This document shows, one piece after another, positions 3,601 to 17,166 of a DNA stretch of 64,000 nt. Each line of letters opens with the position of its first letter. Position 1 is the stretch's first letter. The notes under the pieces are model-generated. The model was not told the DNA's origin. It made no database searches and was given only the letters and a program-made list of their open reading frames with translations. The stretch covers positions 805,501 to 869,500 of the forward strand of contig JAHCHX010000001.1 of the NCBI GenBank assembly GCA_026129545.1, in the 5' to 3' direction. Made by a program: the position numbers and the translations under genes. The stretch is from Saprospiraceae bacterium. Lineage in GTDB: Bacteria > Bacteroidota > Bacteroidia > Chitinophagales > Saprospiraceae.

Positions 3601-4400
3601 GGAAGAATTGCGACATGACGGAATACAGTAAAGTCCGAACATAGATAGCTCTAAAAGCATATTCGAGCAAGGAAGAATTGCGACTCCATCAATATCTACA
3701 ATGATACAATTTTTTTTGTCCTCTAAAAGCATATTCGAGCAAGGAAGAATTGCGACCTTTGCTTATCTTTTTCATACTCTTTTATATTTTTTCTCTAAAA
3801 GCATATTCGAGCAAGGAAGAATTGCGACCCTTGAGAGAAAGAACCGTTATTTTTATATTTCAAGCCTCTAAAAGCATATTCGAGCAAGGAAGAATTGCGA
3901 CGTTGGATTTGGTAATTCTGACGAAAATTCTTTTGAACTCTAAAAGCATATTCGAGCAAGGAAGAATTGCGACCCTTTACTATTTCGGCGATGTCATATT
4001 CAATTTGTTCTCTAAAAGCATATTCGAGCAAGGAAGAATTGCGACTGCCTTTGTCCTTGATGAGCGGTGATTTCTGAATGACTCTAAAAGCATATTCGAG
4101 CAAGGAAGAATTGCGACGGTTGAAGAAAGAATACATCTTGGACGTGGATGACTCTAAAAGCATATTCGAGCAAGGAAGAATTGCGACCTACCATCTGCTT
4201 GATGGTAGCGAGCATGTTCTCAGTCTCTAAAAGCATATTCGAGCAAGGAAGAATTGCGACGTGACTACATTTGTGCATATGATTATCCGTCACCTCTAAA
4301 AGCATATTCGAGCAAGGAAGAATTGCGACGTTTTCCCCAATTTTCCAAAGAAGATTGCCGCTGTCTCTAAAAGCATATTCGAGCAAGGAAGAATTGCGAC
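650..4400 (+). CRISPR. CRISPR array, 53 repeats and 52 spacers, type III-B associated
   Basis: A 36-bp repeat recurs 53 times, starting at 650, 722, 795, 865 and so on, with the last at 4365-4400. I saw no repeat variants. Spacers are 33-37 bases. The repeat begins CTCTAAAAGC and ends AATTGCGAC on the plus strand. Its last eight bases, ATTGCGAC, match the usual type III crRNA 5' handle pattern (compare ATTGAAAC; the Thermus Cmr handle is, from memory, identical), so the array is probably transcribed rightward, in the same direction as cas2 and cas6. A short GCAA...TTGC inverted repeat near the 3' end could be the Cas6 recognition hairpin. The lack of repeat decay at either end suggests an array maintained until recently. 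Confidence 0.98.
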
Positions 4401-4722
4401 GACCCTTATGAAATCCTCCCCACCCCACACACTCACCCGTCGCGCCACTCACCCAATACCCCACAGCAAGGAAGTGCTTTCCGCCGCGACGACTGCCTCC
4501 CCTTCCACGCCCCCCCCCAGCCAGCGAACACTCAAGCCCCATTTTTGCCACCTACCTGACATCCGGTACTTTTTTTCGACAAATGGCTTGCGCTTTTTCG
4601 CACAAAACACCTTACTTGCAGCGCGTTTGAAAACCGAGCCGCCCCTCCCGACCATACCCGCTCCCAGCGACCAACGCACCATCGAAACTGTTTTTGCAAA
4701 CAATCCAATCCACGCACGCCAG
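4401..4722. other. Gap between CRISPR array and cas6
   Basis: The cas6 reading frame is open back to about 4408, but the translated stretch before 4723 is low-complexity proline, threonine and serine sequence with no Cas6 character. I therefore treat it as noncoding. It is GC-rich, C-rich on the plus strand, and shows no clear promoter. It could carry the cas6 promoter or the distal end of the array. Confidence 0.5.
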
Positions 4723-5415
4723 ATGAGGAAACTTCGCATCTTATCCGTTTCCTTCGACACGCACCTCCAACCTTGGGAACTCCCGCACTTCCGCGGCGCG
4801 GTCGCTCGAAAAGTAGGCCTCGAACACGACTGGTTTCACAACCACAACAACGACACAGGCTCCTACCACCAGCGTTATCCCCTCATTCAGTACAAGTTGG
4901 ACACCCACAAAGGGCAAATCCGCCCCATGCTACTCTGTCTCGAACAAGGCATCGAGGAGGCACACCACTTCTTCAGTCAACCCGACTGGAGCCTGCGCGT
5001 CGGCGAGCAGCGACACGACATGCGCATCGCCCAACTCAACGTGAACCAATACACCCTCCACGTGCAAGAGCCCCCCTCACGCTACCGCCTCCACAAATGG
5101 AGGGCCTTCAACCCCGAAAACTACGAGCACTACCGCACCCTCACGGGCATCGCCGAGCAGTTCGCCTTCCTCGAGCGCCTGCTGGCCACCCACATTATCG
5201 CCTTCGCCGCAGGCGTGGGCTGGGAGGCCGCGCCGCGCTTCGAGGTGAAAATCACCGACTTGCTCAAAAAAGAATGGATAGAGCACAAAGGCATCAAAAT
5301 GCTGGCCTTCACCCTCGAGTTCGAGGCCAACATATCGCTGCCCGAATACATCGGGCTGGGCAAAGGCGCGGCGCTAGGCTTCGGAGTGGTGCGGCCGCAA
5401 AAAAATAGACATTGA
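4723..5415 (+). CDS. cas6: CRISPR pre-crRNA endoribonuclease Cas6
   Basis: The 230-residue product, counted from the ATG at 4723 (MRKLRILSVSFD), has a RAMP-type first strand and ends with the glycine-rich loop GLGKGAALGFGVV (about residues 212-224), the hallmark of Cas6 C-terminal domains. The FRGAVARKVG segment early on is typical of the Bacteroidota Cas6 group. Cas6 cuts the repeat hairpins of the precursor transcript to release crRNAs with an 8-nt 5' handle. The gene lies 322 bases after the array on the same strand. A longer frame exists upstream, but the extra residues look non-homologous. Confidence 0.85.
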   Translation: MRKLRILSVSFDTHLQPWELPHFRGAVARKVGLEHDWFHNHNNDTGSYHQRYPLIQYKLDTHKGQIRPMLLCLEQGIEEAHHFFSQPDWSLRVGEQRHDMRIAQLNVNQYTLHVQEPPSRYRLHKWRAFNPENYEHYRTLTGIAEQFAFLERLLATHIIAFAAGVGWEAAPRFEVKITDLLKKEWIEHKGIKMLAFTLEFEANISLPEYIGLGKGAALGFGVVRPQKNRH

Positions 5416-5440
5416 ACATTTCAAAAAATTCTAAATCCCT

Positions 5441-5472
5441 AATCGTAAATCGTAAATCGTAAATCGTAAATT
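5441..5472. repeat. Short heptamer repeat (about 4 copies)
   Basis: The heptamer AATCGTA is repeated about four times. This is the reverse complement of the GATTTAC unit that makes up the long array at 16953-17166. It is followed by related CTAAATCC words. The same simple repeat family therefore occurs in inverted orientation on both sides of the cmr operon. Confidence 0.7.
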
Positions 5473-5518
5473 CTAAATCCCCAATTCTAAATCCTAAATT
5501 TTCAACCAACACCATAAC

Positions 5519-6055
5519 ATGAAAATCTACCAACTCAAAATCACGCTCAAGCACATCAAGCCGCCCATCTGGCGCTGCGTCGAGGTGCCTGCCGACATCG
5601 GCCTGAAAGACCTTTGCGACACGCTCATTGATGTGATGGGCTGGGACGGCTACCACCTGATGAGTCTCAATATCGGCGGAGAGGAGTTTTTCGGCGACAA
5701 AGAAAGCGCCGATGAAATGGGTGGCCGCGTGATGGGCAAAACCAAACTCAACAAACTCATCACCGCGCCCAAGCAAAAATTCCTGCTCGAATACGACTTC
5801 GGCGACGGCTGGGAACACGATATCGTTTTGGAAAAAATACTCGACCCCGAACCCGGTGCCTCCTATCCGCGCTGCACCGCCGGCAAACGCGCCTGTCCGC
5901 CCGAGGACTGCGGCGGGCCGTGGGGATACGAGCACCTTTTGGCCGTGCTGAACAACCCCAAAAACCCGGAACATGAGAGCATGCTGGAATGGGTCGGAGG
6001 GGAGTTTGATGTGGAGGGGTTTAGCGTGGAGGAGGTGAATGGGAGGTTGGGGTGA
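5519..6055 (+). CDS. Plasmid pRiA4b ORF-3-like protein
   Basis: The 178-residue product opens with YQLKITLKHIKPPIWR and contains FGDGWEHDIVLE (around residues 96-107), PRCTAGKRACPPEDCGG and the W/GGEFD ending. This is the recognisable signature of the pRiA4b ORF-3 family (PF07929), often annotated as an IS1096 passenger protein. Its biochemical role is not established. It is complete and in the same orientation as cas6, but separated by 103 bases of simple repeats, so it is probably a neighbour in the accessory region rather than a CRISPR component. Confidence 0.85.
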   Translation: MKIYQLKITLKHIKPPIWRCVEVPADIGLKDLCDTLIDVMGWDGYHLMSLNIGGEEFFGDKESADEMGGRVMGKTKLNKLITAPKQKFLLEYDFGDGWEHDIVLEKILDPEPGASYPRCTAGKRACPPEDCGGPWGYEHLLAVLNNPKNPEHESMLEWVGGEFDVEGFSVEEVNGRLG

Positions 6056-6060
6056 CGAAA

Positions 6061-6173
6061 ATTGTACATTGGTCATTGAACATTGTACATTGAACATTAA
6101 TGACTTGGAAATTTTTAAATTTTTGAAATGTACAATGTGCAATGGCCAATTTTCAATGTACAATTGACGCCAG
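6061..6173. repeat. Imperfect inverted repeat of TTGTACATTG words
   Basis: The left arm has three TTG(T)ACATTG-like words and the right arm, 6128-6173, carries their reverse complements (AATGTACAAT at both its ends). The arms enclose an AT-rich centre and could form a long imperfect hairpin. Such an element between genes looks like a repetitive extragenic or small non-autonomous element, but no target duplication was seen. Confidence 0.55.
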
Positions 6174-6181
6174 ATCTAAAT

Positions 6182-6334
6182 ATGGAACACGCTGAACGAA
6201 AATACGATCTCGAAGACCGACTCGTGGAGTTCGCGGGGATGGTGATTGAGGTGGTGGAAAAACTGCCGAAGTCACTTGCAGCCAAACACCTCGGCCATTC
6301 CTTAACAACAGAACACTCAAAAAGAATGGGTTGA
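6182..6334 (+). pseudogene. Truncated four-helix bundle protein (23S rRNA IVS family)
   Basis: From the ATG at 6182 the sequence reads RKYDLEDRLVEFAG and then VVEKLPKSLAAKHLGHSL, which is the conserved first helix and turn of the four-helix bundle family (PF05635). These proteins are normally about 115-130 residues long. Here homology stops after about 40 residues and the frame ends at residue 50, so this is a 5' fragment. It sits between the inverted repeat at 6061-6173 and the membrane protein gene, and marks a rearrangement junction. Confidence 0.65.
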
Positions 6335-6350
6335 ACAAAAACAAAATCGA

Positions 6351-7178
6351 ATGACCTATCAAGTTCACATCAAGCCAATTTACTGGTTTCTTCTTGCAAT
6401 TCTTCTTGTTCTAGGAGTTTGGAGTTATTCCGTTTGGGCAAGCTATGGGTACCTGCCCAGCACAGTCGCGAAACTGAAAAACGAGGTCGAATTGCTAAAA
6501 GCACCAGCGGACTCCGCCAAGTCAAGTACTACGCTTGATATGCAGAAATTGGAACTCAAAATTGACCGGGTAGAAACAAGCATCCGCAACGATTTTGTCC
6601 TCATCCAAAAACTCGGCATCCCGCTGACGGTGATCGCCTTCGTCCTGATGTTTTGGTCGGTCTATAAATCTGCGCTTGGCTTTGCGCTGGAAAGAGCAAA
6701 AGAAACGGTTGACCGCTACTATCTGCCGGACGAAGAAAGGTTCAAGCGCGAGAAAAAACTGCTCGTGCTGACAAAAGAAGGTAGCGATTCCGGATTTATC
6801 CGACAGATGTTGAAAGACACGGGGTTTCTGGCCGCAGCAACTATCCCTGATAATGTGAAAAGACTTGACGAAGACACGCTATATAACCTTTTGGATGGGG
6901 GAAATTATGACCTGATTTTTTTCAATAATGAGGTTGCATCCGATGCGCCAAAAGAGACTCCAAATCCTTTTTCTGATGATGAATTGCTATTATGCTTGGA
7001 CAGAACATCATCAGGCACGATGATTTTTCATTTCGGAAGGCCTAATCTTTCACAAACACCAATGGCGAATAGACGGGTTGCCTCTGCTGGCTTCAAATCC
7101 CAAATCTACGGTAACCTCATCAATGCCCTGAAATACCAACAATATCTGCGCAAACCATCCACCACAAAACAGGCATAA
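6351..7178 (+). CDS. Predicted type III CRISPR-associated membrane effector (2 TM + Rossmann-like domain)
   Basis: The 275-residue product has a first membrane segment at about 11-30 (WFLLAILLVLGVW), a 37-80 coiled-coil-like region, a second membrane segment at about 87-105 and a soluble C-terminal domain at 135-268. That domain alternates predicted strands and helices: KKLLVLT, a helix with FIRQMLKD, NYDLIFFN, then TMIFHFGR and a final helix GNLINALKYQQ. This is the layout of a Rossmann-like ligand-binding fold. The stop codon overlaps the cmr1 start by one base, so it is the first gene of the cmr operon. By analogy with known membrane effectors (Cam1, Csx23) I infer a cyclic-oligoadenylate-triggered membrane protein. 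I see no clear CARF or SAVED signature. A homologous stand-alone domain is encoded at 14377-14778. Confidence 0.6.
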   Translation: MTYQVHIKPIYWFLLAILLVLGVWSYSVWASYGYLPSTVAKLKNEVELLKAPADSAKSSTTLDMQKLELKIDRVETSIRNDFVLIQKLGIPLTVIAFVLMFWSVYKSALGFALERAKETVDRYYLPDEERFKREKKLLVLTKEGSDSGFIRQMLKDTGFLAAATIPDNVKRLDEDTLYNLLDGGNYDLIFFNNEVASDAPKETPNPFSDDELLLCLDRTSSGTMIFHFGRPNLSQTPMANRRVASAGFKSQIYGNLINALKYQQYLRKPSTTKQA

Positions 7179-8048
7179 TGCCCTCACTCATTTGGAATAT
7201 GGAGACTATTACGTTTAACTGCCGCTTTATCACCCCCGCCTTCCTCGGTGGCGCCGACCCTAAAGGCACGCCGGAACTTCGTGCGCCTTCGATTAAGGGA
7301 GCGTTGCGGTTTTGGTGGCGGGCGATGAATGGTTATTTAGTCAAGAAAGAAAATGGTAACCCAACTTATCAATATTTGCTGAAAGAAGATGAAGATATCT
7401 TTGGAGGAATTTATCAAGTAATGCAAAAGAGCCCAATTATTGTCAGGGTCGTAGAAAAAAATATGCGCTATACAAAAGGAGGAGATATTTTCCGAGGCGG
7501 CCAAATAGAAGGGATTGAATACCTATTCTATTCGTTGAAGCACCATAAAAGGGATGACTTGGGGTTCGATACAGAAAGTAAATTTGACATCATTTTTTCG
7601 TGTCGGGAGGAAAACCGGGATATTCTACTAAAAGCCCTTGCATCATTTTGGTTGCTGGTTAACCTTGGCAGTTTAGGTACGCGAGCGAGGCGTTGCGCTG
7701 GCGCATTTTGCATTGATTCTATCGAAGACAAAATGGGGATTTTACAAGATAGAATATCTTTTTTTACAGAGACCGACGAAACAACTATTGATTTTTTGAA
7801 AGCTAACTTCAAGAAAATTTCCGAATTGATTGGCTCGAAAAAACCAGTTTTATTCAAAAAATATAGTTTATTGAATCAGACCTCCCCCGCATATTTAAGC
7901 AATCAAACCTTTTCCACATGGCAAGATGCAGTCAATTCAATCGGAGGAGAGCTCCGGTCCACAAGAAAAGGGAAAACAAGCCGTATAAAATCTGAACGAA
8001 CTTTTACGATAGAAACATTAGATAAGAAAGCGGCCTTTGGTATTCCAG

Positions 8049-8815
8049 GGTAGTGGAAATATTTAACTGACAATGTAATTTTGCGCCATGATAACGGAAG
8101 TTCGTCGTTGCCACCGCTGTGAAAGCAGCAACATCGTCAAAAACGGGAAAAACCGCTCCGGCACCCAAACCTACAAGTGCAAAGATTGTGGTTGCTGCCG
8201 GGTATTGGACAGCAAGCAACCCAGCAGGAACATGGACCCCGAACTGGTGGAGCGTGCCTACCAAGAGCGGCAAAGCCTTCGAGGCACGGGGCGCTTGTTG
8301 AATGTCTCGCATCGGACGGTACTCAATTGGTTAAAAAAAAAAGCCCGGCAACTCCCCCCATTCAAAACCACCATTGAGGAAGGACAAGCCGACGACCAGT
8401 TAGAGGCGGACGAAATGTTCACTTACATCGCCGTGAAAATCAATCAAGTACGGGTCTGGATTGTCCAGTGCTGTAGAACTAGGCAGATACTTTCCTTTTT
8501 CATTGGCGATGGCTCGATGGACTCCTGCAAGCGCCTTTGGCGAAAACTACCCTACGAGTACCAAAAATGCTTGAGTTTCAGCGATTTTTGGACGGCGTAC
8601 CAATGCTTGCCCAACGAAACACACTACATGGTCGGCAAGGAGACCGGTCTGACAAACCATGTTGAAAGGCTGAACAACACCTTGCGCCAGCGTATCAGCC
8701 GATTCGTCCGAAAAACCCTCTCCTTCTCCAAAAAGGAGTATATGCTCAATCTGCACTTCAAACTATTCGCATACCACTACAACTTAAATGTCATCAGTTA
8801 AATATTTCCACTACC
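8049..8815 (+). mobile_element. IS1-family insertion sequence inside cmr1
   Basis: The element is 767 bp, with perfect 22-bp terminal inverted repeats at 8049-8070 and 8794-8815, beginning GGTAGTGG as in IS1 ends. It is flanked by a perfect 9-bp direct repeat, GTATTCCAG, at 8040-8048 and 8816-8824, which matches the 8-9 bp duplication made by IS1 elements. It contains one transposase gene. The intact ends, the intact duplication and the perfectly restorable host frame indicate a recent insertion. Confidence 0.96.
8088..8801 (+). CDS. IS1-family transposase (single-frame)
   Basis: The 237-residue product has an N-terminal zinc-binding pair (CHRCESSNIVKNG, then YKCKDCGCC), a helix-turn-helix region (RGTGRLLNVSHRTVLNWLKKK) and the IS1 catalytic part: QLEADEMFTYI, then SFSDFWTAY, and the ending LTNHVERLNNTLRQRISRF and KTLSFSKKE. 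Classical IS1 makes this protein by a -1 frameshift between insA and insB; here both halves are in one frame. A run of ten A bases at 8333-8342 sits at the junction between the DNA-binding and catalytic parts and could allow slippage to a shorter DNA-binding product. Confidence 0.95.
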   Translation: MITEVRRCHRCESSNIVKNGKNRSGTQTYKCKDCGCCRVLDSKQPSRNMDPELVERAYQERQSLRGTGRLLNVSHRTVLNWLKKKARQLPPFKTTIEEGQADDQLEADEMFTYIAVKINQVRVWIVQCCRTRQILSFFIGDGSMDSCKRLWRKLPYEYQKCLSFSDFWTAYQCLPNETHYMVGKETGLTNHVERLNNTLRQRISRFVRKTLSFSKKEYMLNLHFKLFAYHYNLNVIS

Positions 8816-9092
8816 GTATTCCAGTAGGTGTTTTTAGTGACAATCCAGTAACTTTCAAAGAGAATGAACGGCGCGCAAGTCCGATCTACCTATCTGTGAT
8901 TTTTAATAAAAATAATAGCAAATTCCACTGGGTTGTCACTCACCTGGAAGGTGAGTTTATGCCAGACAATGACACGATTGTCTTTACCAGTAAAAATAGA
9001 AATGTTCGAAATAAAGATCATTCTTGGTCTAAAGAAGATGACAGCCTTATAAAATCTTTCATGCAAAAAATCAAAAGCAAAGCCCAGCAGAT

Positions 9093-10952
9093 ATGACCCA
9101 CCTCTTCCTCTTCACCATCGGCCCAGTCCAATCCTTCATCGCGCAAGCGCGGAAGGTGCACGACCTGTACAGTGGCAGCCGGATATTGTCGGAGTTGTGC
9201 AAGGTCGCTGCTGACCATTTTGAAAAGAAGCACGGCGGCGAAGTCATTTTCCCTGACATCAGCAGCGACGCTATTCCCAACCGGTTTCTTGGGAAAATCA
9301 CCGCTGCTGATGACTTGGCATCCATAGGCAAATCGGTTGCCGATGCGGTTCAGGACTATTGGAGAATGCAATTTGACGAACCTCAAAAAGGAGTTGAATT
9401 TTCGCTTGCTGAGTTACTTGACCCTACGACTTATCACGAAGCCAAACGCCAAATCGAGCAGCACCTCGACATTCAGTGGCTTTTCCAGCCGCTTGCAGAC
9501 GAAACCGACGCGACCTACCGCAGGGCTTACGACGAATTGAACAAAAACCTCAATGCAGTCAAAAACACCCGGCCATTCTTCACACCCAATGAGAAGGGAA
9601 GGAAATGCAGTCTTGATGGCGAGCGGAATGTGATTTTCTACAGATTGGCCAACGGGCAAGTTATTAGACAACAAGACAAGGCACCGCTCTACTCCGTTTC
9701 AAATGTGACAATCGGCTATAACGACCTAAGCCAGTTGAAACTTCGCCACTTACAGCCCGGCGAGGGTTTGAGTGCAGTCAGTATGCTAAAAAGGTTTCAG
9801 GAGTTTGAGGCAGGCGACTTCCCGGACACGGCAGAGTTTGCCCTTGCTGACACTATGCACGAGGTAGGCTCAACCAGCCTTTCAAGCATGACAAAGATTT
9901 TTGGCCACAGCCATCCTAAACACCTGAACTGGCAACTGTTATTTGAAGAAAATCTGAACGAGCGATATTTTGAGAAGCAGGGATTATCCGCCCAAAAACT
10001 GCAAGATGCGAAAGATATTCAAAAAGCATTGGCTGATAAAGCCAAAGAGCATGGCCGCAAACTCGAAAAATACTACGCCCTCGTCGTTTTCGACGGCGAC
10101 CACATGGGCGAATGGTGGAAAGGCACGCACCTGAAACACGGTGTGCATCTGGAGACATTCCACAAAACCCTGACGGGAAAGTTGGCCGATTTCGCCAAAG
10201 CAGTGCGGGCCGAATACCCCAAAGGTGACCATCGGGGCTGGGTCATTTACGCCGGCGGCGACGATTTCCTCGGCTTTTTCAATTTGCACCACTTGACAGG
10301 GGCGTTGGACTTTCTGCGCGATACCTACCAACAGACCGTTCACGAACAACTTTCAGCGCATATCGAAGGTGAGCACAAACTGACCTTTTCCGCTGGGGTT
10401 TGCATCGCGCATTACAAGGAGCCGCTTTCGCTGGTGCTCGCACAAGCACGCGAAATGGAAAAAGATGCCAAAAACTTGCGGGATAAAAAAGACGCAATCG
10501 GCATTGGGGTCATACCCGGCAGCGGACAAACTGCCGAGGTCGTGCTGCCGTTTGAGGATTTCCCTAACCTTGGCAAAGTCATTGCCGCTTTGCAAACGCC
10601 GGACTTCTCCAATGCTTTTGTCAGCAAAGCCAGGGCAGAATTGACAGCCTTTGCGGATGACGACGGCAAACTAAAGGAAAAGCTCTTGCCAACTGCGCAC
10701 AGCCTGCTCGACCGTGCCGTAAGCCGCGCCTGCAACCTGACGAAAAACGAGGGCGAATCGGACGAAGAGTTTCAGAAGCGGAAAAAAGAGAAAGTCGAAC
10801 CATTGCAAACCGCAGTCAAAAACTTGCTCAACGCGCATAACCAAAAACTCAGCGCCTTTTTCGACGCGCTTGACATAGCGGATTTCATCGAGCGCCAAAC
10901 CCATATCTCTCCCACCAAAAACGAGCCTGCAGAACATGAAACTACAACTTGA
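9093..10952 (+). CDS. cas10: Type III-B Cas10 / Cmr2, cyclase type without HD domain
   Basis: The 619-residue product starts directly with FTIGPVQSFIAQARK, the first palm-domain motif of Cmr2, so the N-terminal HD nuclease domain found in many Cas10 proteins is absent. The cyclase motif GGDD is at residues 388-391 (YAGGDDFLGFF), and the preceding metal-site motif FDGDHMGEWW is at about 331-340. The protein should convert ATP to cyclic oligoadenylates when the complex binds target RNA. It overlaps the cmr1 remnant by ATGA and cmr3 by 17 bases. Expression may suffer from polarity of the IS1 insertion just upstream. Without HD, immunity should depend on RNA cleavage and on signalling effectors. 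Confidence 0.95.
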   Translation: MTHLFLFTIGPVQSFIAQARKVHDLYSGSRILSELCKVAADHFEKKHGGEVIFPDISSDAIPNRFLGKITAADDLASIGKSVADAVQDYWRMQFDEPQKGVEFSLAELLDPTTYHEAKRQIEQHLDIQWLFQPLADETDATYRRAYDELNKNLNAVKNTRPFFTPNEKGRKCSLDGERNVIFYRLANGQVIRQQDKAPLYSVSNVTIGYNDLSQLKLRHLQPGEGLSAVSMLKRFQEFEAGDFPDTAEFALADTMHEVGSTSLSSMTKIFGHSHPKHLNWQLLFEENLNERYFEKQGLSAQKLQDAKDIQKALADKAKEHGRKLEKYYALVVFDGDHMGEWWKGTHLKHGVHLETFHKTLTGKLADFAKAVRAEYPKGDHRGWVIYAGGDDFLGFFNLHHLTGALDFLRDTYQQTVHEQLSAHIEGEHKLTFSAGVCIAHYKEPLSLVLAQAREMEKDAKNLRDKKDAIGIGVIPGSGQTAEVVLPFEDFPNLGKVIAALQTPDFSNAFVSKARAELTAFADDDGKLKEKLLPTAHSLLDRAVSRACNLTKNEGESDEEFQKRKKEKVEPLQTAVKNLLNAHNQKLSAFFDALDIADFIERQTHISPTKNEPAEHETTT

Positions 10953-12012
10953 CGCCCTCGACCCGCTCTTTTTCCGGGATGGCCGACCCTTCGCGCTCGG
11001 CGAGGAGTCGTATGCCGATGGCATATTCCCGCCCCTGCCCTCGACGGTGCGCGGCGCGCTGCGTTCGATGTGGATGTCCGAGCGTCTCGGCGTGCCTGAT
11101 GCCGACAAAGATGCCTTGGCCACAGCCTCTATCGGGGTGGAACTGGAGTATTTTGGCTTGGGGATTGCGGGCAAACCCGTTTTTCCCGCACCCCTTGATT
11201 TGTTCTTCCCAAAGCCCGAAAAGGGCACTCCGGCTCAGCCGATGAAATTGATAGACAAAATATCCGCCTCATCCTGCCCGCCCAAAGTGAGCCACCTTTT
11301 CAAGGCAGAAGCGGATGGGAAAACGGAACCTGTGCATGGGCACTTACTTGATTTTGAAACGATGCAGCACTATTTGAACGGCGACTCTTCGGCTCCATTT
11401 GAGACGATACGCCTGTCGGATCTGGTCAAGCGCGAGCACAAAATAGGTATCGGGCGCGATCGCGAAACCAATCGCACGAAGGAGGGGCTGCTTTTCCGCC
11501 TCGTCGCCAATCGTTTTGAGGATGAAAAACATGGGGGGCTTAGCCTCTTGGTGGAATTGAACGCGCCCGAATCGCAGCCCTTCAAACTTGCGAGCCATGC
11601 GGTGCTCCCCCTCGGCGGTGAGCGGCGCAGCGTAACAGCAAAAACTACGAGCGTTGACTTGCTCCCGAAAAGGCCGAAGATTCAAGGGGAATTGCTGAAA
11701 ATTGTCTTGCTCACGCCGGCACTTTGCAACGCATGGTTTCCTGAAATTCCGGGGCTTACTTTGGTCGCAGCAGCCGTCGGGAAACCGGTTTCCGTGGGCG
11801 GCTGGGATGTGTTGGAGCAGCAACCCAAGCCCATGCGCCGCGCCATACCCGCTGGAAGTGTCTTTCTGTTTCAAGCCGAATCCGAAGCAAAGGCCAACGA
11901 AATGGCCGAACAATTGCACGGCGAATCACTCTGCAGCCCCGGCGAAGACCAAAAGAACGGCTTCGGCCTTTGCCTTGTCAGTCAACTGTTTAACACTCAA
12001 CTTCCAAGATAA
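10936..12012 (+). CDS. cmr3: Type III-B RAMP protein Cmr3
   Basis: The 358-residue product begins LDALDPLFFRDGRPFA, the clear Cmr3 opening, followed by FPPLPSTVRGALRS. It ends with GEDQKNGFGLCLV, a RAMP glycine loop. The middle contains the IGIGRDRETNRTKEGLLFR segment typical of Cmr3. In the effector complex Cmr3 sits with Cas10 at the foot and holds the 5' handle of the crRNA. It overlaps cas10 by 17 bases, and its stop overlaps the cmr4 start by one base, so the three genes are translationally coupled. Confidence 0.93.
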   Translation: MKLQLDALDPLFFRDGRPFALGEESYADGIFPPLPSTVRGALRSMWMSERLGVPDADKDALATASIGVELEYFGLGIAGKPVFPAPLDLFFPKPEKGTPAQPMKLIDKISASSCPPKVSHLFKAEADGKTEPVHGHLLDFETMQHYLNGDSSAPFETIRLSDLVKREHKIGIGRDRETNRTKEGLLFRLVANRFEDEKHGGLSLLVELNAPESQPFKLASHAVLPLGGERRSVTAKTTSVDLLPKRPKIQGELLKIVLLTPALCNAWFPEIPGLTLVAAAVGKPVSVGGWDVLEQQPKPMRRAIPAGSVFLFQAESEAKANEMAEQLHGESLCSPGEDQKNGFGLCLVSQLFNTQLPR

Positions 12013-12926
12013 TGTTTCAAATCGCAAAACCCATTTTTTTCATCTGCGAAACGCCCCTTCATGCGGGCGCAGGCGGAGGCATCGGCACGGAGTTGCCCAT
12101 TCAGCGCGAAGCGCACACCCTTTTTCCGAAAGTAGAAGCCTCGGGCATCAAAGGGGCCTTTCGGGATGTTTTTGAGCGAAAATTTACTGGAAAGGGGCTT
12201 CACCAAGATTTAATTGCCGTTTTCGGGCACCCGACTGAAGGTGATTTGAACGCCGGCGCGCTCGGCCTGACCGATGGGCGGCTTCTGCTTTTTCCGGTGC
12301 GCAGTCGGCAGGGTGTATTCGCTTGGACAACCTGCCCGCGGGTGCTCACCCGTTTTGAGCGCGACTTGCGTGTGAGCGCGGCAAACGGTGGCGGTGAAGA
12401 AGTAAGTAATTTGGCGGATTTGGTTAATTCTGTTTCAAAAAACACGGTGCCGCAAAGCAGCATAATCACCAATGCTGGAAAGGTTTTTTTAGAGGAATAC
12501 AGCATTGAAGTAACCAAAGATGCAGATGCAAATGGGGCGACAAGCAAACTCGCCGAAGCCTTGGCCAATATCCTCGGAATTCCAGAACTGCCCACACAGT
12601 TTGTGGTCATCCCGGATGAGTATTTTTCAGACTTTGTGCAACACAACACCGAAGTCCATACTCGAATTCGTATCGGGGAAGACGGCGTAGTTGAGGACGG
12701 AGCGCTTTTTTCCGAAGAGCATTTGCCTACGGCGAGTGTGCTTTATTCGTTGGCCATGGCTCACCCTGAATTCAAAAAAGATGGGCGCAACGCGGCGCAA
12801 ATTCTTAACATCTTCCACAATGGCCTTCCGGGAATCGTCCAAATAGGCGGCAACGCCACGCTCGGCAAAGGCATCGTCCGTATCACCAAACCTTTTTTTG
12901 AAAATGAGCAAGCCACAAAATCTTGA
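12012..12926 (+). CDS. cmr4: Type III-B backbone RAMP protein Cmr4
   Basis: The 304-residue product carries the Cmr4 signature: ETPLHAGAGGGIG, then LPIQREAHTLFPKVEASGIKGA, and a glycine-rich GNATLGKGIVRI close to the end. Cmr4 forms the backbone helix of the complex and cuts target RNA every six bases. In Pyrococcus Cmr4 the cleavage residue is D26 in the sequence VVDQPIQRE; here the aligned residue is E27 (GTELPIQRE) and the loop looks one residue shorter. Cleavage may therefore be altered or weak. The gene overlaps cmr5 by 23 bases. Confidence 0.93.
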   Translation: MFQIAKPIFFICETPLHAGAGGGIGTELPIQREAHTLFPKVEASGIKGAFRDVFERKFTGKGLHQDLIAVFGHPTEGDLNAGALGLTDGRLLLFPVRSRQGVFAWTTCPRVLTRFERDLRVSAANGGGEEVSNLADLVNSVSKNTVPQSSIITNAGKVFLEEYSIEVTKDADANGATSKLAEALANILGIPELPTQFVVIPDEYFSDFVQHNTEVHTRIRIGEDGVVEDGALFSEEHLPTASVLYSLAMAHPEFKKDGRNAAQILNIFHNGLPGIVQIGGNATLGKGIVRITKPFFENEQATKS

Positions 12927-13362
12927 AGCCAAGCGGGCTTTGAAGGCGTTCACTTTTGCTGAAATTGGGAACAAAAAGCAGAAGGACACCAAAAACAAAT
13001 TCAACTATTCGGCAGCCGTTCAGGAGCTGCCTTCCATGATTCGCATGAATGGCCTGCGAGCGACTATGGCTTTTTTTTACTCAAAAAAAGGTCAGCATCT
13101 GGAGGTCTTTGAAAATGTGCGCGATTGGTTCAATGATGACGACGAGCCGACAAAGTTCATGAGGGCAAAACTTCAGGCATCGCCAGAAAACATAAAGCCT
13201 GACGGTTTTATGAAAGTCTTGTTAGAATTAACAGATGATGAGTACCGAATCGTGCAAGCCGAAACATTTACACTGGCCAATTGGATGATCCGATTTGTAA
13301 AAACCGAGAAATCAACCTCTCCTCAATCAAATTCAACGCCCGATGATACTGCGCAACCTTAA
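12904..13362 (+). CDS. cmr5: Type III-B small subunit Cmr5
   Basis: The 152-residue product from the ATG at 12904 (MSKPQNLEAKRALKA) is helical and contains AAVQELPSMIRMNGLRATMAF, the typical Cmr5 helix pair, followed by SKKGQHLEVF. Cmr5 lines the groove for target RNA along the Cmr4 backbone. A TTG two codons upstream is possible, but the ATG is preferred. It overlaps cmr4 by 23 bases and cmr6 by 20 bases. Confidence 0.88.
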   Translation: MSKPQNLEAKRALKAFTFAEIGNKKQKDTKNKFNYSAAVQELPSMIRMNGLRATMAFFYSKKGQHLEVFENVRDWFNDDDEPTKFMRAKLQASPENIKPDGFMKVLLELTDDEYRIVQAETFTLANWMIRFVKTEKSTSPQSNSTPDDTAQP

Positions 13363-14380
13363 ACTTGAATCGTTCGACCAGAGCCGGAATGTCATACTGG
13401 TCGAGGCCGATGGCCAGCGGAGAAAGGTCTCGGCTTCCGCAGCCGTATTGCGGAAAGCCTTCATCACCCGTGCCTGGCTCGACCGGACATTGGTCAGTTG
13501 CGCCGTAGGCAAATGCAGGCTCGAAGCGGAAGCGGAACAACGCGGCAATCAGTGGGTGGCCACCCAAGTCTGGCTTGCAATGGAAAAAAGCGTTACAAAT
13601 GAATCAAAAAGTATGTTCAAAAATTTTGGGCTTGAATTGAACAAGCCTGCGTTGAATCCTCAAAAAACAGGGTCAAATTTGTTTGATATTTCAAAAATGG
13701 ATGAACCCATCACTAAACTTGGGGCGCGATTTTCACCTGAAAAAAACGACCTCTGTAACTTCCGTTTCGACAATGAATTTTTAGAAAAACTCGCCGCTCG
13801 AAATCTGAAAAATGCCGCAGCAATCGCCCCAAGTGGGTTGATTCAGGTAGATTTTACTCCGGACTGGCGTATGGTCACAGGCATGGGCGAAGCATCCGTC
13901 TATAAAACGAACATGACCTTGCACCCTGTTTATGGCGTGCCCTATATCCCGGCTTCGAGCATCAAAGGCATACTGCGCCATTACCTCTCGGAGTTCGAGG
14001 AAGGCCAAAAGCACATCGAAAAGATTTTTGGAAAAAACGACGAAGAATCCAGCACCAAGAATCCCGTGCGCGGGCAGTGCATCTTCTTCGATGCCTTCCC
14101 GACCAAAGCCCCGCGCATCGAACTGGACGTGATGACGCCACACTACCCCAAATACTACGGCGAAGGCCAACCCCCGGCCGATTGGCAAAGCCCTACGCCC
14201 ATCCATTTTTTGACGGTGGGGCAAGGGACGCCTTTCCGATTTCTCATCGGCTTGCCGGACAATGAATTAAAAGAAAAATTAGAAACCTGGCTCATAGAGG
14301 CTTTGACGACAAGGGGGCTTGGCGCCAAATCGGCTGTGGGTTATGGCTATTGGAAGCCATACAACGCAGAACAAGCATGA
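13343..14380 (+). CDS. cmr6: Type III-B RAMP protein Cmr6
   Basis: The 345-residue product has a lead segment of about 90 residues rich in strands, then the Cmr6 core: YGVPYIPASSIKGILRHYL (about residues 196-214), DVMTPHYPKYYGEG and SPTPIHFLTVGQGTPFRF, ending with a GLGAKSAVGYG glycine loop. Cmr6 sits near the 3' end of the crRNA with Cmr1. The stop codon shares ATGA with the next gene. The N-terminal part is longer than in compact Cmr6 proteins. Confidence 0.92.
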   Translation: MILRNLKLESFDQSRNVILVEADGQRRKVSASAAVLRKAFITRAWLDRTLVSCAVGKCRLEAEAEQRGNQWVATQVWLAMEKSVTNESKSMFKNFGLELNKPALNPQKTGSNLFDISKMDEPITKLGARFSPEKNDLCNFRFDNEFLEKLAARNLKNAAAIAPSGLIQVDFTPDWRMVTGMGEASVYKTNMTLHPVYGVPYIPASSIKGILRHYLSEFEEGQKHIEKIFGKNDEESSTKNPVRGQCIFFDAFPTKAPRIELDVMTPHYPKYYGEGQPPADWQSPTPIHFLTVGQGTPFRFLIGLPDNELKEKLETWLIEALTTRGLGAKSAVGYGYWKPYNAEQA

Positions 14381-14778
14381 CCCTCTCCCTTTCCACGGCC
14401 CGAATCCTCGTCGTCTCCCGCACCCCCGACGACAGCGCCTACATGCAGGACTTCTTCGCCCGCATCCAAGACCTGCCCACGCCGGATTTTGTGGTGGGCA
14501 AAACCGTCCCGTCCGACAAATACGACTTCATCGTGTTCGACGCGCACAGCCTGCCGCCTGCGCTAAATATCGAAGCGTTCACGAAACTTCCCGACGACAT
14601 TCAGGCGCACTATTTTCTGCTCGACAACTACCTTCGCGATACTGCGAAATACATCGTGTTCTTCGGCAAGTACTACTACAACCTCAACCAAGAGCGCTGC
14701 CCCTCCGCCAACTCCAAATTCACCCTTTTCGCCCGTATCCGCGAGCTCATAGACTTCCTCAACCACTACAAATCATAG
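14377..14778 (+). CDS. Stand-alone Rossmann-like protein linked to the type III-B operon
   Basis: The 133-residue product starts at the ATG that overlaps the cmr6 stop (ATGA). It lacks membrane segments. Its order of elements, TARILVVSR, a helix with YMQDFFARI, KYDFIVFD, YIVFFGKYY and a last helix IRELIDFLNHYK, follows the C-terminal domain of the protein at 6351-7178 (KLLVLT, FIRQML, NYDLIFFN, MIFHFGR, NLINALKYQ). I infer that the two are homologous. A soluble copy could sense or remove the ligand or hold the membrane protein inactive. The family is not recognised. The protein could also be an unrelated small Rossmann fold, since conserved positions are mostly hydrophobic. Confidence 0.6.
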   Translation: MTLSLSTARILVVSRTPDDSAYMQDFFARIQDLPTPDFVVGKTVPSDKYDFIVFDAHSLPPALNIEAFTKLPDDIQAHYFLLDNYLRDTAKYIVFFGKYYYNLNQERCPSANSKFTLFARIRELIDFLNHYKS

Positions 14779-14782
14779 CACC

Positions 14783-15151
14783 ATGCCACCCTCCCACGAC
14801 CCCGCCCGCGAACACCGCATCCTCGACGAAATCATCGTGGACTGCTACGACGAGGAAGAAGAACTCATGGGCCGGTACTACTACATGACCGACAATCTGG
14901 AGTTTCCCATCACCGCCACCGCCCGGATGCCCCTGCGCGGCGGCACGACGGAGGAAAAAACCGAGCAAATCGTGGAGGTGGACCCCAAAAGCGAGACAGG
15001 CAGCCCCATTCGTTTGGGCGTGGCAGAGGAAGGCAGCGAGCGCATCCACCACATCAGCCCGGCAGACCTCGTGCGCCTCGACACCACGCCCGAAAATCTG
15101 GAAATCATCAATGACTGGCTCTACTGGCACGATTTCGAGTTGTTGCATTGA
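14783..15151 (+). CDS. CcbP-like calcium-binding family protein
   Basis: The 122-residue product has REHRILDEIIVDCYDEEEEL, then MGRYYYMTDNLEFP, and ends ENLEIINDWLYWHDF. This matches the layout of the CcbP family (PF11535), whose Anabaena member is an acidic calcium-binding protein. The C-terminal part (SPADLVRLDTTPENLEIINDW) is well kept, while the middle has an insertion of about 20 residues. The gene follows the small Rossmann-like gene by 4 bases, so it appears to be the last intact member of the cmr operon. Whether it has a role in immunity is unknown. Confidence 0.65.
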   Translation: MPPSHDPAREHRILDEIIVDCYDEEEELMGRYYYMTDNLEFPITATARMPLRGGTTEEKTEQIVEVDPKSETGSPIRLGVAEEGSERIHHISPADLVRLDTTPENLEIINDWLYWHDFELLH

Positions 15152-15297
15152 AGCACGCGGCACGCGAAAACCCGTTCCAGAATATCTCCCGAAACGAAGT
15201 GGTCAAAGTGAAATACCCGGATGGCGCCATCCGCAAGGGGAAGTTCAAGCGACTGGAAGATGATTTGCGGGCGGGAAAATGTGAGTTGGTGCAATAA
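15148..15297 (+). CDS. Small basic ORF downstream of the CcbP-like gene
   Basis: A short frame reads ENPFQNISRNEVVKVKYPDG and continues KGKFKRLEDDLRAGKCELVQ before the stop at 15295-15297. It has the look of real coding sequence but no ATG; the nearest start is a TTG overlapping the previous stop. It may be the C-terminal remnant of a longer gene or a genuine 49-residue peptide. I do not recognise a family with confidence. Confidence 0.35.
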   Translation: MKHAARENPFQNISRNEVVKVKYPDGAIRKGKFKRLEDDLRAGKCELVQ

Positions 15298-15338
15298 ACC
15301 AGCCGTCTTTACCTTCGCCTTGCAATTTCCTTTTCGAC

Positions 15339-16949
15339 ATGGCCAAGCGCACTTTCTCTGTATTCGCCGTCACCACAGCCGACTGGCTCAAGTACTGCCC
15401 TTACAAGCAATTCTCGCCGCAGTACGATGGTATTACCTGCGGCTCTCCAACCGTGTGTTCGAGGCGCTGAACGCATCAGATTTTCTTCGGGGCATTATTG
15501 CCCGCGAGCACACAGTCGAGCTCGCCGTCGTGCTTGCGTCGTGGTTTGAGGACTATGCGAACGAAATCGGCCTTTGGGCTATTTTTGTTCGCAAAAACAA
15601 GGAGCTACACGGCTACGAACTGCCATTTTACAATCTCGACGACTACGACCCCGACGACATGAATCCCGAGGACATCGCTTATCTCGTGTGGCATTTCTGC
15701 TGCAACGCTACCAACAAAATCTTCAGTCCTGACAACGCCGACTTGCTGAAAATGGCCGATGCGCTGTTGGAAACCTTTGATGAGGCGCTCGACGAAGCGC
15801 CCGGCACCGATTTCTACGACGATTTCCTGCATATTGCTCCCGACATTTATTTTTTCAATCTAAAAAGCAAGCTGTATTGGCTGGCCTTTCAATGCTACCT
15901 CACCGCGCCCGAGATGAGACGTGAAATGGATGAAGCAGTGCGGAAACTCTTGGAAGAAAAAAATGACTTGCTCCGCGCCTACGACGACCCCAACAAACTC
16001 ATCTACACCATGCAGGATGATTATTTATACAAAAAATGCTCGTCGTTTCTCGCTTTCACCATGCCCGACTGGCTGGCGGAAGTGGCGCGTTGCCCCGACG
16101 ATTCCCTGCACGACGATATCCGCAAATTATCCCGGCGTGTGCTCGGCGAGTTTGTCTATGAGGCCTACGAGGGAGACTATTACAAATTTCGGTATCTGCA
16201 CACCAAGCGACTTTTTCTTGTGCAGCAGGAATCTGTGACCCTGAAGGGCATCAGCCTAGGCGAACTGGTGCTCACTAGCATCGTCGAATGGCGCGGCGAA
16301 TGGTGGGTCACTGGCACGATTGCCAATTTGGGCAATGCCGAGTTCGCACTGAAAAACACGAACAAAAAGTTCGACCCTTCCACGGTTTCGTTTTACGCAT
16401 GGCCGGAAGAGCAACAGCAGGTGCTGCGCGACACTGCTTCCAATATGGAAGGCGGCCTACCTCGAATACTTTGGCGCTCCAATGGTATTTTTCAAAGATG
16501 AGAAAGACGTACATACCGCATTTAAGGATGCAAACGATTTATACAATAGCAGATTGAGCAAGGGAGGGTGGTTTGCGCCTAAGCCGTCAAAGCCCGAAAC
16601 GCGCAATTTTTTTACTTCGCCGAGCTAGCTGTATAATGGAACGGGCGTTGCCATTTTTTTGGAGCCGGGCGTAGGCGCGGTCATTTCTTCGTTGCTGGCG
16701 GAAATCGCTTATTTGCTCGATAAGCCAGAGCCGACTCGTGAAGAGTCCGCGGCCTTGTTTTTTGACCTTTTCAAAGAGTGCAGCTTAGCCTCTGTGCAAT
16801 ATATGCTGGAGCATTTTTCGTCGCGCAATCTGCATTTTCCCGTCCTCACCAATCTCTCCCCCCTGCCATACCCTGAGTATCTCATGCGATTTTACAACCC
16901 CGACTCATTCAGGGAGAAAATACCCATCAACACTTTTATGCCAAGTTGA
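15339..16949 (+). pseudogene. Degraded DUF3843-family gene
   Basis: The gene starts at an ATG with VTTADWLKYCPYKQFSPQYD, shifts frame near 15430 into YYLRLSNRVFEALNASDF and GLWAIFVRKNKELHGYELPF, shifts again near 16450 into AAYLEYFGAPMVFFKDEKD, meets an in-frame TAG at 16626, and then continues in the same frame (LYNGTGVAIFLEPGVGAV) to 16949. The sequence features recall DUF3843, a Bacteroidota family of unknown function. With two frameshifts and one stop it is very probably dead. Low-quality assembly could explain the frameshifts, although neighbouring genes are clean. Confidence 0.75.
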
Positions 16950-16952
16950 TTT

Positions 16953-17166
16953 GATTTGCGATTTGCGATTTGCGATTTACGATTTGCGATTTGCGATTTG
17001 CGATTTACGATTTGCGATTTGCGATTTGCGATTTGCGATTTACGATTTACGATTTGCGATTTACGATTTGCGATTTGCGATTTGCGATTTACGATTTGCG
17101 ATTTGCGATTTGCGATTTACGATTTACGATTTACGATTTGCGATTTACGATTTGCGATTTGCGATT
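16953..17166. repeat. Heptamer tandem repeat (GATTTGC/GATTTAC), about 30 copies
   Basis: A 7-base unit, GATTTGC or GATTTAC, repeats for about 214 bases directly after the end of the DUF3843 remnant. Because 7 is not a multiple of 3 and the unit has no stop in any plus-strand frame, all three frames stay open and produce artefactual peptides of the form DLRFAIC. The two unit variants are intermixed rather than blocked. Confidence 0.95.

Follow-up and report, generated by a model that had tools for sequence, protein, structure and literature searches.

In the available text of the 2025 classification, the cyclic oligoadenylate (cOA) sensors of type III CRISPR systems are almost exclusively CARF and SAVED domains, and most loci with an active Cas10 carry a ring nuclease. 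Among the transmembrane (TM) effectors of these systems, Cam1, Csx23 and Cap1 are gated by cOA through sensors that are CARF, Csx23-specific or CARF-like, Cap1 being presented, in the accessible part of its description, as a protein with two TM helices (2TM) and a CARF-like domain whose pore widens on cA4 (PMC12642688). A further candidate effector, Cam2, is a type III-linked protein with N-terminal TM helices and a C-terminal receiver (REC) fold, predicted to sense cOA and to bind cA3, as far as the consulted account extends (Hoikkala 2024). Here, we analyze a stretch of 64,000 nucleotides (hereafter the window) from a Saprospiraceae bacterium (assembly GCA_026129545.1, contig JAHCHX010000001.1, positions 805,501 to 869,500), in which a type III-B cmr operon is bracketed by a gene for a membrane protein and a gene for a small soluble protein. 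A Rossmannoid domain of receiver-like type, related to Pfam NARF (PF20299), is common to the two proteins.

The reading that accounts best for the data, and which we consider probable, is that these domains are receiver-like second-messenger sensors forming two branches, one of membrane effectors and one of soluble proteins mostly linked to the domain EAD11, and that the window carries one member of each. The two genes and their parts are the following.

6351-7178, + strand: membrane protein of 275 residues with two TM helices, a coiled coil and a NARF domain, a candidate second-messenger-gated effector (Pfam NARF, PADLOC Mem_03, TM helices, structure model)
6363-6419, + strand: TM helix 1, residues 5-23 (hydropathy; helix 9-32 in the model)
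6594-6650, + strand: TM helix 2, residues 82-100 (hydropathy; helix 91-124 in the model)
6744-7148, + strand: NARF, receiver-like domain, residues 132-266 (Pfam, profile alignments, structure match)
14377-14778, + strand: stand-alone soluble NARF-like protein of 133 residues without EAD11 (structure model, receiver-like fold, profile relation)

An earlier sequence-only reading of this DNA had given the coordinates, strands and order of these genes, their overlaps with the cmr genes and the two membrane helices, all of which hold. The stop codon of the membrane open reading frame (ORF; TAA, 7176-7178) shares one base with the ATG of cmr1, and the ATG of the small gene (14377) overlaps the stop codon of cmr6 as ATGA. 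The same reading had claimed a domain common to both proteins. Pairwise BLASTP misses the relation (24% identity, E 2.1), which therefore rests on profiles. With hhalign, the alignment of 27 soluble domains against 12 whole membrane proteins scores 98.0% (E 2.7e-13), and that of domain against domain 98.3% (E 2.4e-14); the single negative control, a profile of four Card1 sequences against the soluble set, gives 0.1% (E 0.71). In these profile alignments the motif pairs proposed earlier fall in register, namely KLLVLT/RILVVS in beta1, FIRQML/YMQDFF in alpha1, NYDLIFFN/KYDFIVFD in beta3, MIFHFGR/YIVFFGK in beta4, and the last helix.

Searches of 2,018 ORFs with hidden Markov models (HMMs) agree with this picture. 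The HMM of the 27 soluble domains finds the membrane protein of the window at E 6.8e-4; for other membrane members the E-values reach as low as 6.5e-13 (L049; here L numbers denote loci and G numbers genomes). The membrane-only HMM finds the soluble protein of L050 at 1.2e-11 and the L008 small protein, 90% identical to that of the window, at 4.9e-5; the window small protein itself is not listed by it at E<=0.1. One entry of the membrane list, L058:13331-14116, is a 2TM protein that Pfam NARF does not match; all other matches listed had previously been collected as NARF. HMMs built with one protein left out recover the tested members, each within its own branch, among them a 1,182-residue protein (1.6e-9) and an mCpol-linked membrane protein (3.2e-9). 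A sequence search of the PDB with both profiles returns no convincing relative (best E 0.039 and 0.016).

The Pfam NARF model itself, the name of which states only an association with nucleotidyltransferases, matches the membrane protein with 28.4 bits, above its curated cut-off of 25, and relatives reach 129 bits. Four soluble relatives exceed the cut-off (L009 26.4, L047 28.3, L085 34.2 and L086 30.6 bits), while most of those scanned fall short of it. The small protein of the window, at 14.8 bits, is also below; since its clade mate L009 is above and the hhalign score is 98%, it is called NARF-like here. The PADLOC families Mem_03 and Mem_02 are library families without known function that combine two TM helices with a globular domain, Mem_03 occurring in type III operons. 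Mem_03, which has no curated cut-off, matches the membrane protein with 17.9 bits (E 6.5e-4) and its relative L063 with 63 bits (E 9e-18).

The structure model of the small protein has a pLDDT of 95.8 and a pTM of 0.90, and that of the membrane protein 70.7 and 0.51, respectively. Foldseek alone gives only weak E-values; VIA-align then puts response-regulator receiver domains first or tied first for the globular parts of both models, with Z about 11. The receiver 3crn_A, for example, matches both at Z 11.0 and rmsd 2.7, over 109 and 120 residues. The comparison of structure models that had been suggested as a check on the sequence-only reading thus yields receiver-like domains in both proteins, not unrelated folds. 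Mem_03 has been described as a possibly diverged CARF, whereas the fold of the models obtained here is receiver-like. Neither protein has a CARF or SAVED match in Pfam or PADLOC at E<=1; no CARF or SAVED chain stands among the 50 structure-search rows listed, which in itself excludes nothing.

The catalytic set of phospho-receivers, which we take to be an acidic pair after beta1, an Asp after beta3 and a Lys after beta5, is not kept in the membrane branch, where the residue after beta3 is Asp in 1/12 and Asn in 9/12 members. The soluble branch has Asp after beta3 in 22/27 members and Lys at K114 in 14/27, the remaining receiver positions being variable; in the window small protein Ser-Arg follows beta1 directly and D18-D19 comes four residues further on, D19 being kept in the five stand-alone proteins and usually not in the EAD11 branch. 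Conserved across both branches are the D/N at the end of beta3, Y/F-F/Y-G in beta4 and A-N-S in beta5, all of them at the ends of strands, the usual place of ligand binding in Rossmannoid domains, and a ligand site may lie there. Nearly invariant in the soluble branch are N112 (27/27), R120 (26/27) and E123 (27/27), the latter two positions, in the last helix, being mostly Asn in the membrane branch (9/12 and 8/12).

The recurrence of both types was followed in 248 genomes of the family, 69 of them with a Cas10 confirmed by PF22335. The soluble profile matches in 26 of the 248, and Cas10 is present in 22 of these 26 versus 47 of the 222 other genomes (Fisher test, 2.2e-10). In 21 of the 26 the soluble type and cas10 share a contig and are no more than 10 kb apart. 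The other five have no Cas10 on that contig: in G468 the soluble gene has cmr3-6-like neighbours at a contig edge, in G444 and G525 it lies on a short contig with non-cas neighbours, and in G429 and G475 the match is at a contig end. Both csm-like and cmr-like loci are represented, these names resting, for loci other than the window, on phmmer comparisons with genes named by eye or with window genes and not on curated subtype calls.

The membrane-domain profile exceeds 100 bits in 12 family genomes, and 9 of these 12 also carry the soluble type, on the same contig and in the same locus. The pair thus recurs at other type III loci, as the sequence-only reading had proposed to look for, with Fisher values of 6.7e-8 over all 248 genomes and 1.0e-3 within the 69 Cas10-positive ones. 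The three without the soluble type are G606 (a 3.4-kb contig), G452 (a III-B locus) and G558 (with an mCpol neighbour). The Cas10 of G452 (L096:8325-10181) reads GGED, not GGDD, and its locus is the only III-B one with a membrane NARF and without a soluble NARF. The count of 12 includes G502, where the match runs across a stop codon near its end, and leaves out the G612 membrane protein (L058), found only by looking inside a soluble-positive locus, as well as G494, with a 21-residue match at a contig start. Weaker membrane-profile matches outside the 12 are those of G418 and G464 (E about 6e-4); those of G401, G404 and G428, one of G494 and the second ones of G468 and G502 are soluble proteins.

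The named relatives found belong to metagenome-assembled genomes of Saprospiraceae and other Bacteroidota (14 loci). Outside the family NARF is rare: at E<=1e-3, 3 of 292 phylum genomes have a match, and the genome of the window is the only one of these three with a score above the cut-off. Used as a single query, the membrane sequence retrieves no sequence other than itself from 296 phylum genomes and none from viral contigs or plasmids, and the small protein or its profile has no match in plasmids, phages or viral contigs; the viral scan is weak evidence against viral relatives because it started from one short conserved pattern.

In a midpoint-rooted tree built from 39 domains, a 97/93 branch separates the 12 membrane domains from the rest. 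The five stand-alone proteins (window, L008, L009, L039 and L041) group in a single clade (100/98), to which L044, with an EAD11 match below the cut-off, is joined; the small protein of the window lies inside the mostly EAD11-fused soluble branch. As membrane and soluble domains form separate clades, the sequence-only view of the soluble protein as a copy of the membrane sensor domain does not hold. The small protein and the other four stand-alone members have no EAD11 match in Pfam. Among 25 other soluble proteins with an N-terminal extension, EAD11 is found above the cut-off in 18, below it in 5 and not at all in 2, a count in which L061, the L048 fragment and the G432 gene are not included. 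At this last locus (L055:9134-9756) an EAD-like ORF and the soluble NARF match are in different frames, possibly owing to a broken gene or a sequencing error.

The soluble branch is fused or adjacent to several outputs. In G303 (L008) an EAD11-NARF-TIR fusion is encoded (EAD11 48.1 and TIR_2 56 bits), the NARF part of which is found at 3.1e-17 by an HMM built without that protein. In G474 (L046:16438-18414) an EAD11-NARF gene adjoins that of a caspase (C14) with a C-terminal EAD11, beside a Cas10/RAMP locus. The type III locus of G470 (L056:8446-14889) presents in a row a STAND-type NTPase, an EAD11-NARF protein, an EAD11-CHAT protein, an amidohydrolase and a 2TM-NARF protein. Here the EAD11 of the soluble NARF protein scores 21.1 against a cut-off of 26, EAD11 and CHAT of the next protein are both above theirs, and the 909-residue NTPase gives AAA_22 29.0 (cut-off 27), NACHT 23.9 (26.7) and EAD11 23.0 (26). 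The 1,182-residue protein of G601 (L061), which ends in a NARF domain, is matched weakly by NACHT (25.6, cut-off 26.7) and not by EAD11. As EAD11 occurs in all 29 genomes tested, with 2 to 44 matches each and 15 in that of the window, its mere presence in a genome is no evidence.

The remaining features of the locus, listed below, follow the order CRISPR array, cas6b, PRiA4_ORF3 gene, membrane gene, cmr1, cas10/cmr2, cmr3-6 and small gene, with a CcbP gene and then a DUF3843 gene 3' of the latter.

650-4401, no strand assigned: CRISPR array, repeats of 36-37 bp with a period of about 71 bp
4408-5415, + strand: cas6b (Pfam Cas6b_N and Cas6b_C)
7178-8053, + strand: cmr1, 5' part, ending within the insertion sequence (IS) element (PADLOC Cmr1 8.8e-22; tblastn with the uninterrupted 374-residue L039 relative)
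8040-8048 and 8816-8824: 9-bp target duplication of the IS1 element
8049-8815, + strand: IS1-family element, with 22-bp perfect inverted repeats at 8049-8070 and 8794-8815
8088-8801: IS1 transposase ORF
8816-9096, + strand: cmr1, 3' remnant, 76% identical to residues 281-371 of the 374-residue L039 Cmr1
9093-10952, + strand: cas10/cmr2, GGDD intact (profile match)
10936-12012, + strand: cmr3 (operon position; matched by cmr3-like genes of other loci)
12012-12926, + strand: cmr4 (operon position; matched by cmr4-like genes of other loci)
12898-13362, + strand: cmr5 (operon position; matched by cmr5-like genes of other loci)
13343-14380, + strand: cmr6 (PADLOC Cmr6 8.1e-49)

Membership in type III-B is based on the profile matches of Cmr1, Cas10/Cmr2 and Cmr6 together with the cyclase-competent GGDD of Cas10, cmr1 being broken by the IS1 element, an interruption that the sequence-only reading had overlooked. 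For cmr3-5 the names rest on operon position and on comparisons in which the window genes themselves served as queries. A simple pattern check finds no typical HD nuclease motif in the Cas10 of the window. A second Cas10 is present in the same genome, at G000:C6:41615-42052, and 3' of the DUF3843 gene about 30 copies of a 7-bp unit (GATTTGC) occupy 16953-17166.

The comparison with G303, of the same genus, shows that the interior of the locus has been exchanged (L008:4521-17517 versus window 4408-16636). The two are about 91% identical over 14377-16636, a stretch that starts with the first base of the small gene and extends to the right, and 78-83% on the left flank, through cas6b and PRiA4_ORF3. 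Between the flanks, the window has the membrane NARF and cmr genes, and G303 a csm-like module and the EAD11-NARF-TIR gene. The small protein is thus not tied to the membrane effector with which the sequence-only reading had paired it. The small gene is common to both genomes, the Cas module and the NARF effector are not, and this favors a general role, for example in messenger buffering, turnover or co-sensing, over that of a subunit of one membrane protein. In the window and in L039 (G402), whose contig begins shortly before the gene for the membrane protein, all genes from the membrane gene to the small gene are cas genes, apart from the two NARF genes themselves and the IS element of the window, and no further candidate effector is encoded there.

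Several neighbours connect these domains to nucleotide second messengers. Of 23 complete Cas10 proteins in these loci, 22 carry GGDD, and that of G452 GGED. In G558 a membrane NARF protein (7.5e-9) is encoded beside mCpol (PF18182, 2.8e-22), and at L083:3759-5214 an EAD11-NARF gene begins 1 bp downstream of a SMODS CD-NTase (4e-7), possibly a CBASS-like operon. Because NARF is found beside mCpol and CD-NTase as well, it most likely senses nucleotide second messengers; together with the GGDD of Cas10, this supports the earlier view of the membrane protein as an effector of the second-messenger type. At the G558 locus (L095:4573-5715) mCpol is divergent from the TM-NARF gene, and RT-like and cas1-like genes lie on the same contig. 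Some of the loci also carry a Card1 relative (L011, confirmed by Pfam; L051, L052 and L057, its phmmer matches), and L053 a Cas_APE2256 protein.

In Panoptes and other mCpol operons, 2TM effectors with CARF, SAVED or beta-barrel sensors stand beside a Cas10-like polymerase, and the text consulted does not name NARF (PMC12657218). The 2TM-CARF effectors of such operons are a precedent for the membrane design seen here. The mCpol and TM-NARF genes of L095 also lie side by side and are possibly a Panoptes-like pair with a new sensor; some of the 2TM-CARF proteins of mCpol operons could be relatives. As for the adaptor side, EADs are small adaptor domains common to core and effector proteins, for which homotypic coupling has been proposed, EAD11 itself not being named in the available text (Kaur 2020, PMC7159879). 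A precedent for a link with type III is given by EAD7/VMAP-CARF systems near such loci (PMC10910872). In the accounts consulted, the EADs described belong to VMAP/MoxR and GTPase systems or, as EAD7, are CARF-linked, whereas here EAD11 is fused to the NARF sensor itself.

The sequence-only reading had suggested that the pair might be undescribed, which turns out to be right for one half of it. The soluble, EAD11-linked branch is undescribed in the libraries and papers searched. In PADLOC (window protein, L008 TIR fusion, L010, L054 and L059) no convincing family is found besides the TIR models on the TIR fusion, Mem_02 matching L059 weakly (4.3e-4), and in NCBIfam (window protein, L009, L039, L040, L054, L085 and L086) no family has a convincing score. 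Among the open-licence PMC papers searched, none joins NARF or EAD11 with type III CRISPR. The membrane protein, on the other hand, matches Mem_03 and Pfam NARF and resembles Cam2. An identity with Cap1 was set aside, as Cap1, where described, has a sharp turn between TM1 and TM2 and a DUF4579, while here about 60 residues separate the TM helices and no DUF4579 match is seen. A second membrane type, found in loci with a soluble NARF (L009:9417-10385, L010:833-1855 and L045:12593-13447; Mem_02 matches the L009 protein), gives 82% (E 1e-5) with the membrane NARF set in hhalign; it was kept apart from the family because it gives only 4.6% with the soluble set.

According to the mechanism that we propose, the degenerate receiver-like domain of both proteins most likely binds the messenger made by the Cas10 of the III-B system, presumably a cyclic oligoadenylate. 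In the membrane protein, binding would change the arrangement of the two TM helices, and the inner membrane would be opened or disrupted, by analogy with what has been reported for Cam1 and Cap1. EAD11-NARF proteins would be messenger sensors that recruit EAD11-tagged caspase, CHAT or NTPase proteins, or that carry TIR directly. The small protein of the window would be the stand-alone form of the soluble branch, a soluble sensor acting in trans, which may compete for the messenger or for NARF-NARF contacts and in this way set the firing threshold of the NARF effector of the locus.

Other roles of the small protein have been considered. It might be a ring nuclease of a new, receiver-like type, which degrades the messenger and resets the membrane effector. 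Ring nucleases being expected in most loci of this kind, it is relevant that no model of one matched in the window proteins scanned with PADLOC, Pfam and NCBIfam (cmr3-5 being outside the scan), that Csx16 and Csx20 are described in the part consulted as similarly small, Rossmann-like proteins of type III loci (PMC12409355), and that N112, R120 and E123 are near-invariant in the soluble branch, the positions of R120 and E123 being mostly Asn in the membrane one. However, R120 and E123 are equally kept in the EAD11-, TIR- and NTPase-fused members, which are more naturally read as sensors, and ring nuclease models, those of Csx16 and Csx20 included, do not match the small protein in PADLOC or NCBIfam, so that we find this role unlikely. 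As a co-sensor subunit, the small protein would assemble with the membrane NARF into mixed oligomers and be needed for its activation, which would be in line with the same fold, the operonic overlap and the frequent co-occurrence. This is made decidedly improbable by G303, where the 90%-identical small protein sits with the EAD11-NARF-TIR protein and no membrane NARF is found in the 20 kb analyzed, and by G452, which has the membrane NARF without the soluble type.

The small protein could also still be an adaptor, its NARF domain contacting NARF or EAD11-tagged effectors encoded elsewhere in the genome. Its position inside the EAD11-NARF branch and the 15 EAD11 matches of its genome would fit; yet the coupling of EADs is, in the text available, proposed to be homotypic (Kaur 2020), and the small protein has no EAD11, which leaves this role very doubtful. 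Finally, the membrane protein may simply be Cam2, predicted to be a cA3 effector, and the rest coincidental cargo. Its N-terminal TM helices and receiver-like C-terminal domain, seen by hydropathy and in the model, reproduce the layout and fold given for Cam2, the comparison being one with the accessible description only. That description mentions no soluble partner and no EAD11, TIR or NACHT forms, and Cam2 alone leaves the domain shared with the flanking gene, the EAD11, TIR and NTPase fusions and the non-random co-occurrence unexplained; we therefore give this explanation, too, little credence.

A number of observations weigh against the reading of two branches of messenger sensors. The model of the membrane protein is only moderate, and for it cobalamin-binding domains tie with the receivers (2xiq_A, Z 11.3; 2yxb, 11.1). 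Receiver-like folds are widespread and do not prove that nucleotides are bound, and the R120/E123 pair, a feature of the soluble branch that most membrane members lack, would be compatible with an enzyme as well. Shared ancestry is not taken into account in the Fisher tests, and the pairing of the two NARF types is not obligate, since the III-B locus of G452 contains the membrane type alone. The mCpol-linked NARF protein has just one predicted TM helix. Some soluble genes are located outside a recognised CRISPR or messenger context, that of L047 lying 5 bp after a carboxylase gene, that of L042 beside a PNPOx gene and that of L086 beside HNOB and, by eye, a helicase gene. Lastly, the system in the genome of the window may be impaired, because cmr1 is interrupted by the IS1 element.

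Going beyond the window, we judge the chances to be even that type III systems have in NARF, next to CARF and SAVED, a third class of second-messenger sensor, a degenerate receiver domain common to Cas10, mCpol and CD-NTase systems, with the soluble branch as a bacterial analogue of death-domain-type adaptors and the stand-alone protein as a buffer. The loci of the window, G303, G402, G474 and G470 would be clear candidates for the established cOA binding and depolarisation assays. If this view is correct, a receiver-like sensor with membrane, TIR and adaptor-linked caspase or CHAT outputs would widen the list of sensors now made up of CARF and SAVED. EAD11-NARF would read the CRISPR alarm molecule and nucleate an EAD11-tagged caspase, CHAT or STAND-type NTPase, or exert its effect through a TIR domain of its own, while the membrane branch would open the membrane. 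The finding of NARF at CRISPR loci, joined to partners of the cell-death type, suggests an overlooked route from alarm signal to response, one that would connect CRISPR signalling to the EAD network, which has been compared with the adaptors of animal apoptosis.

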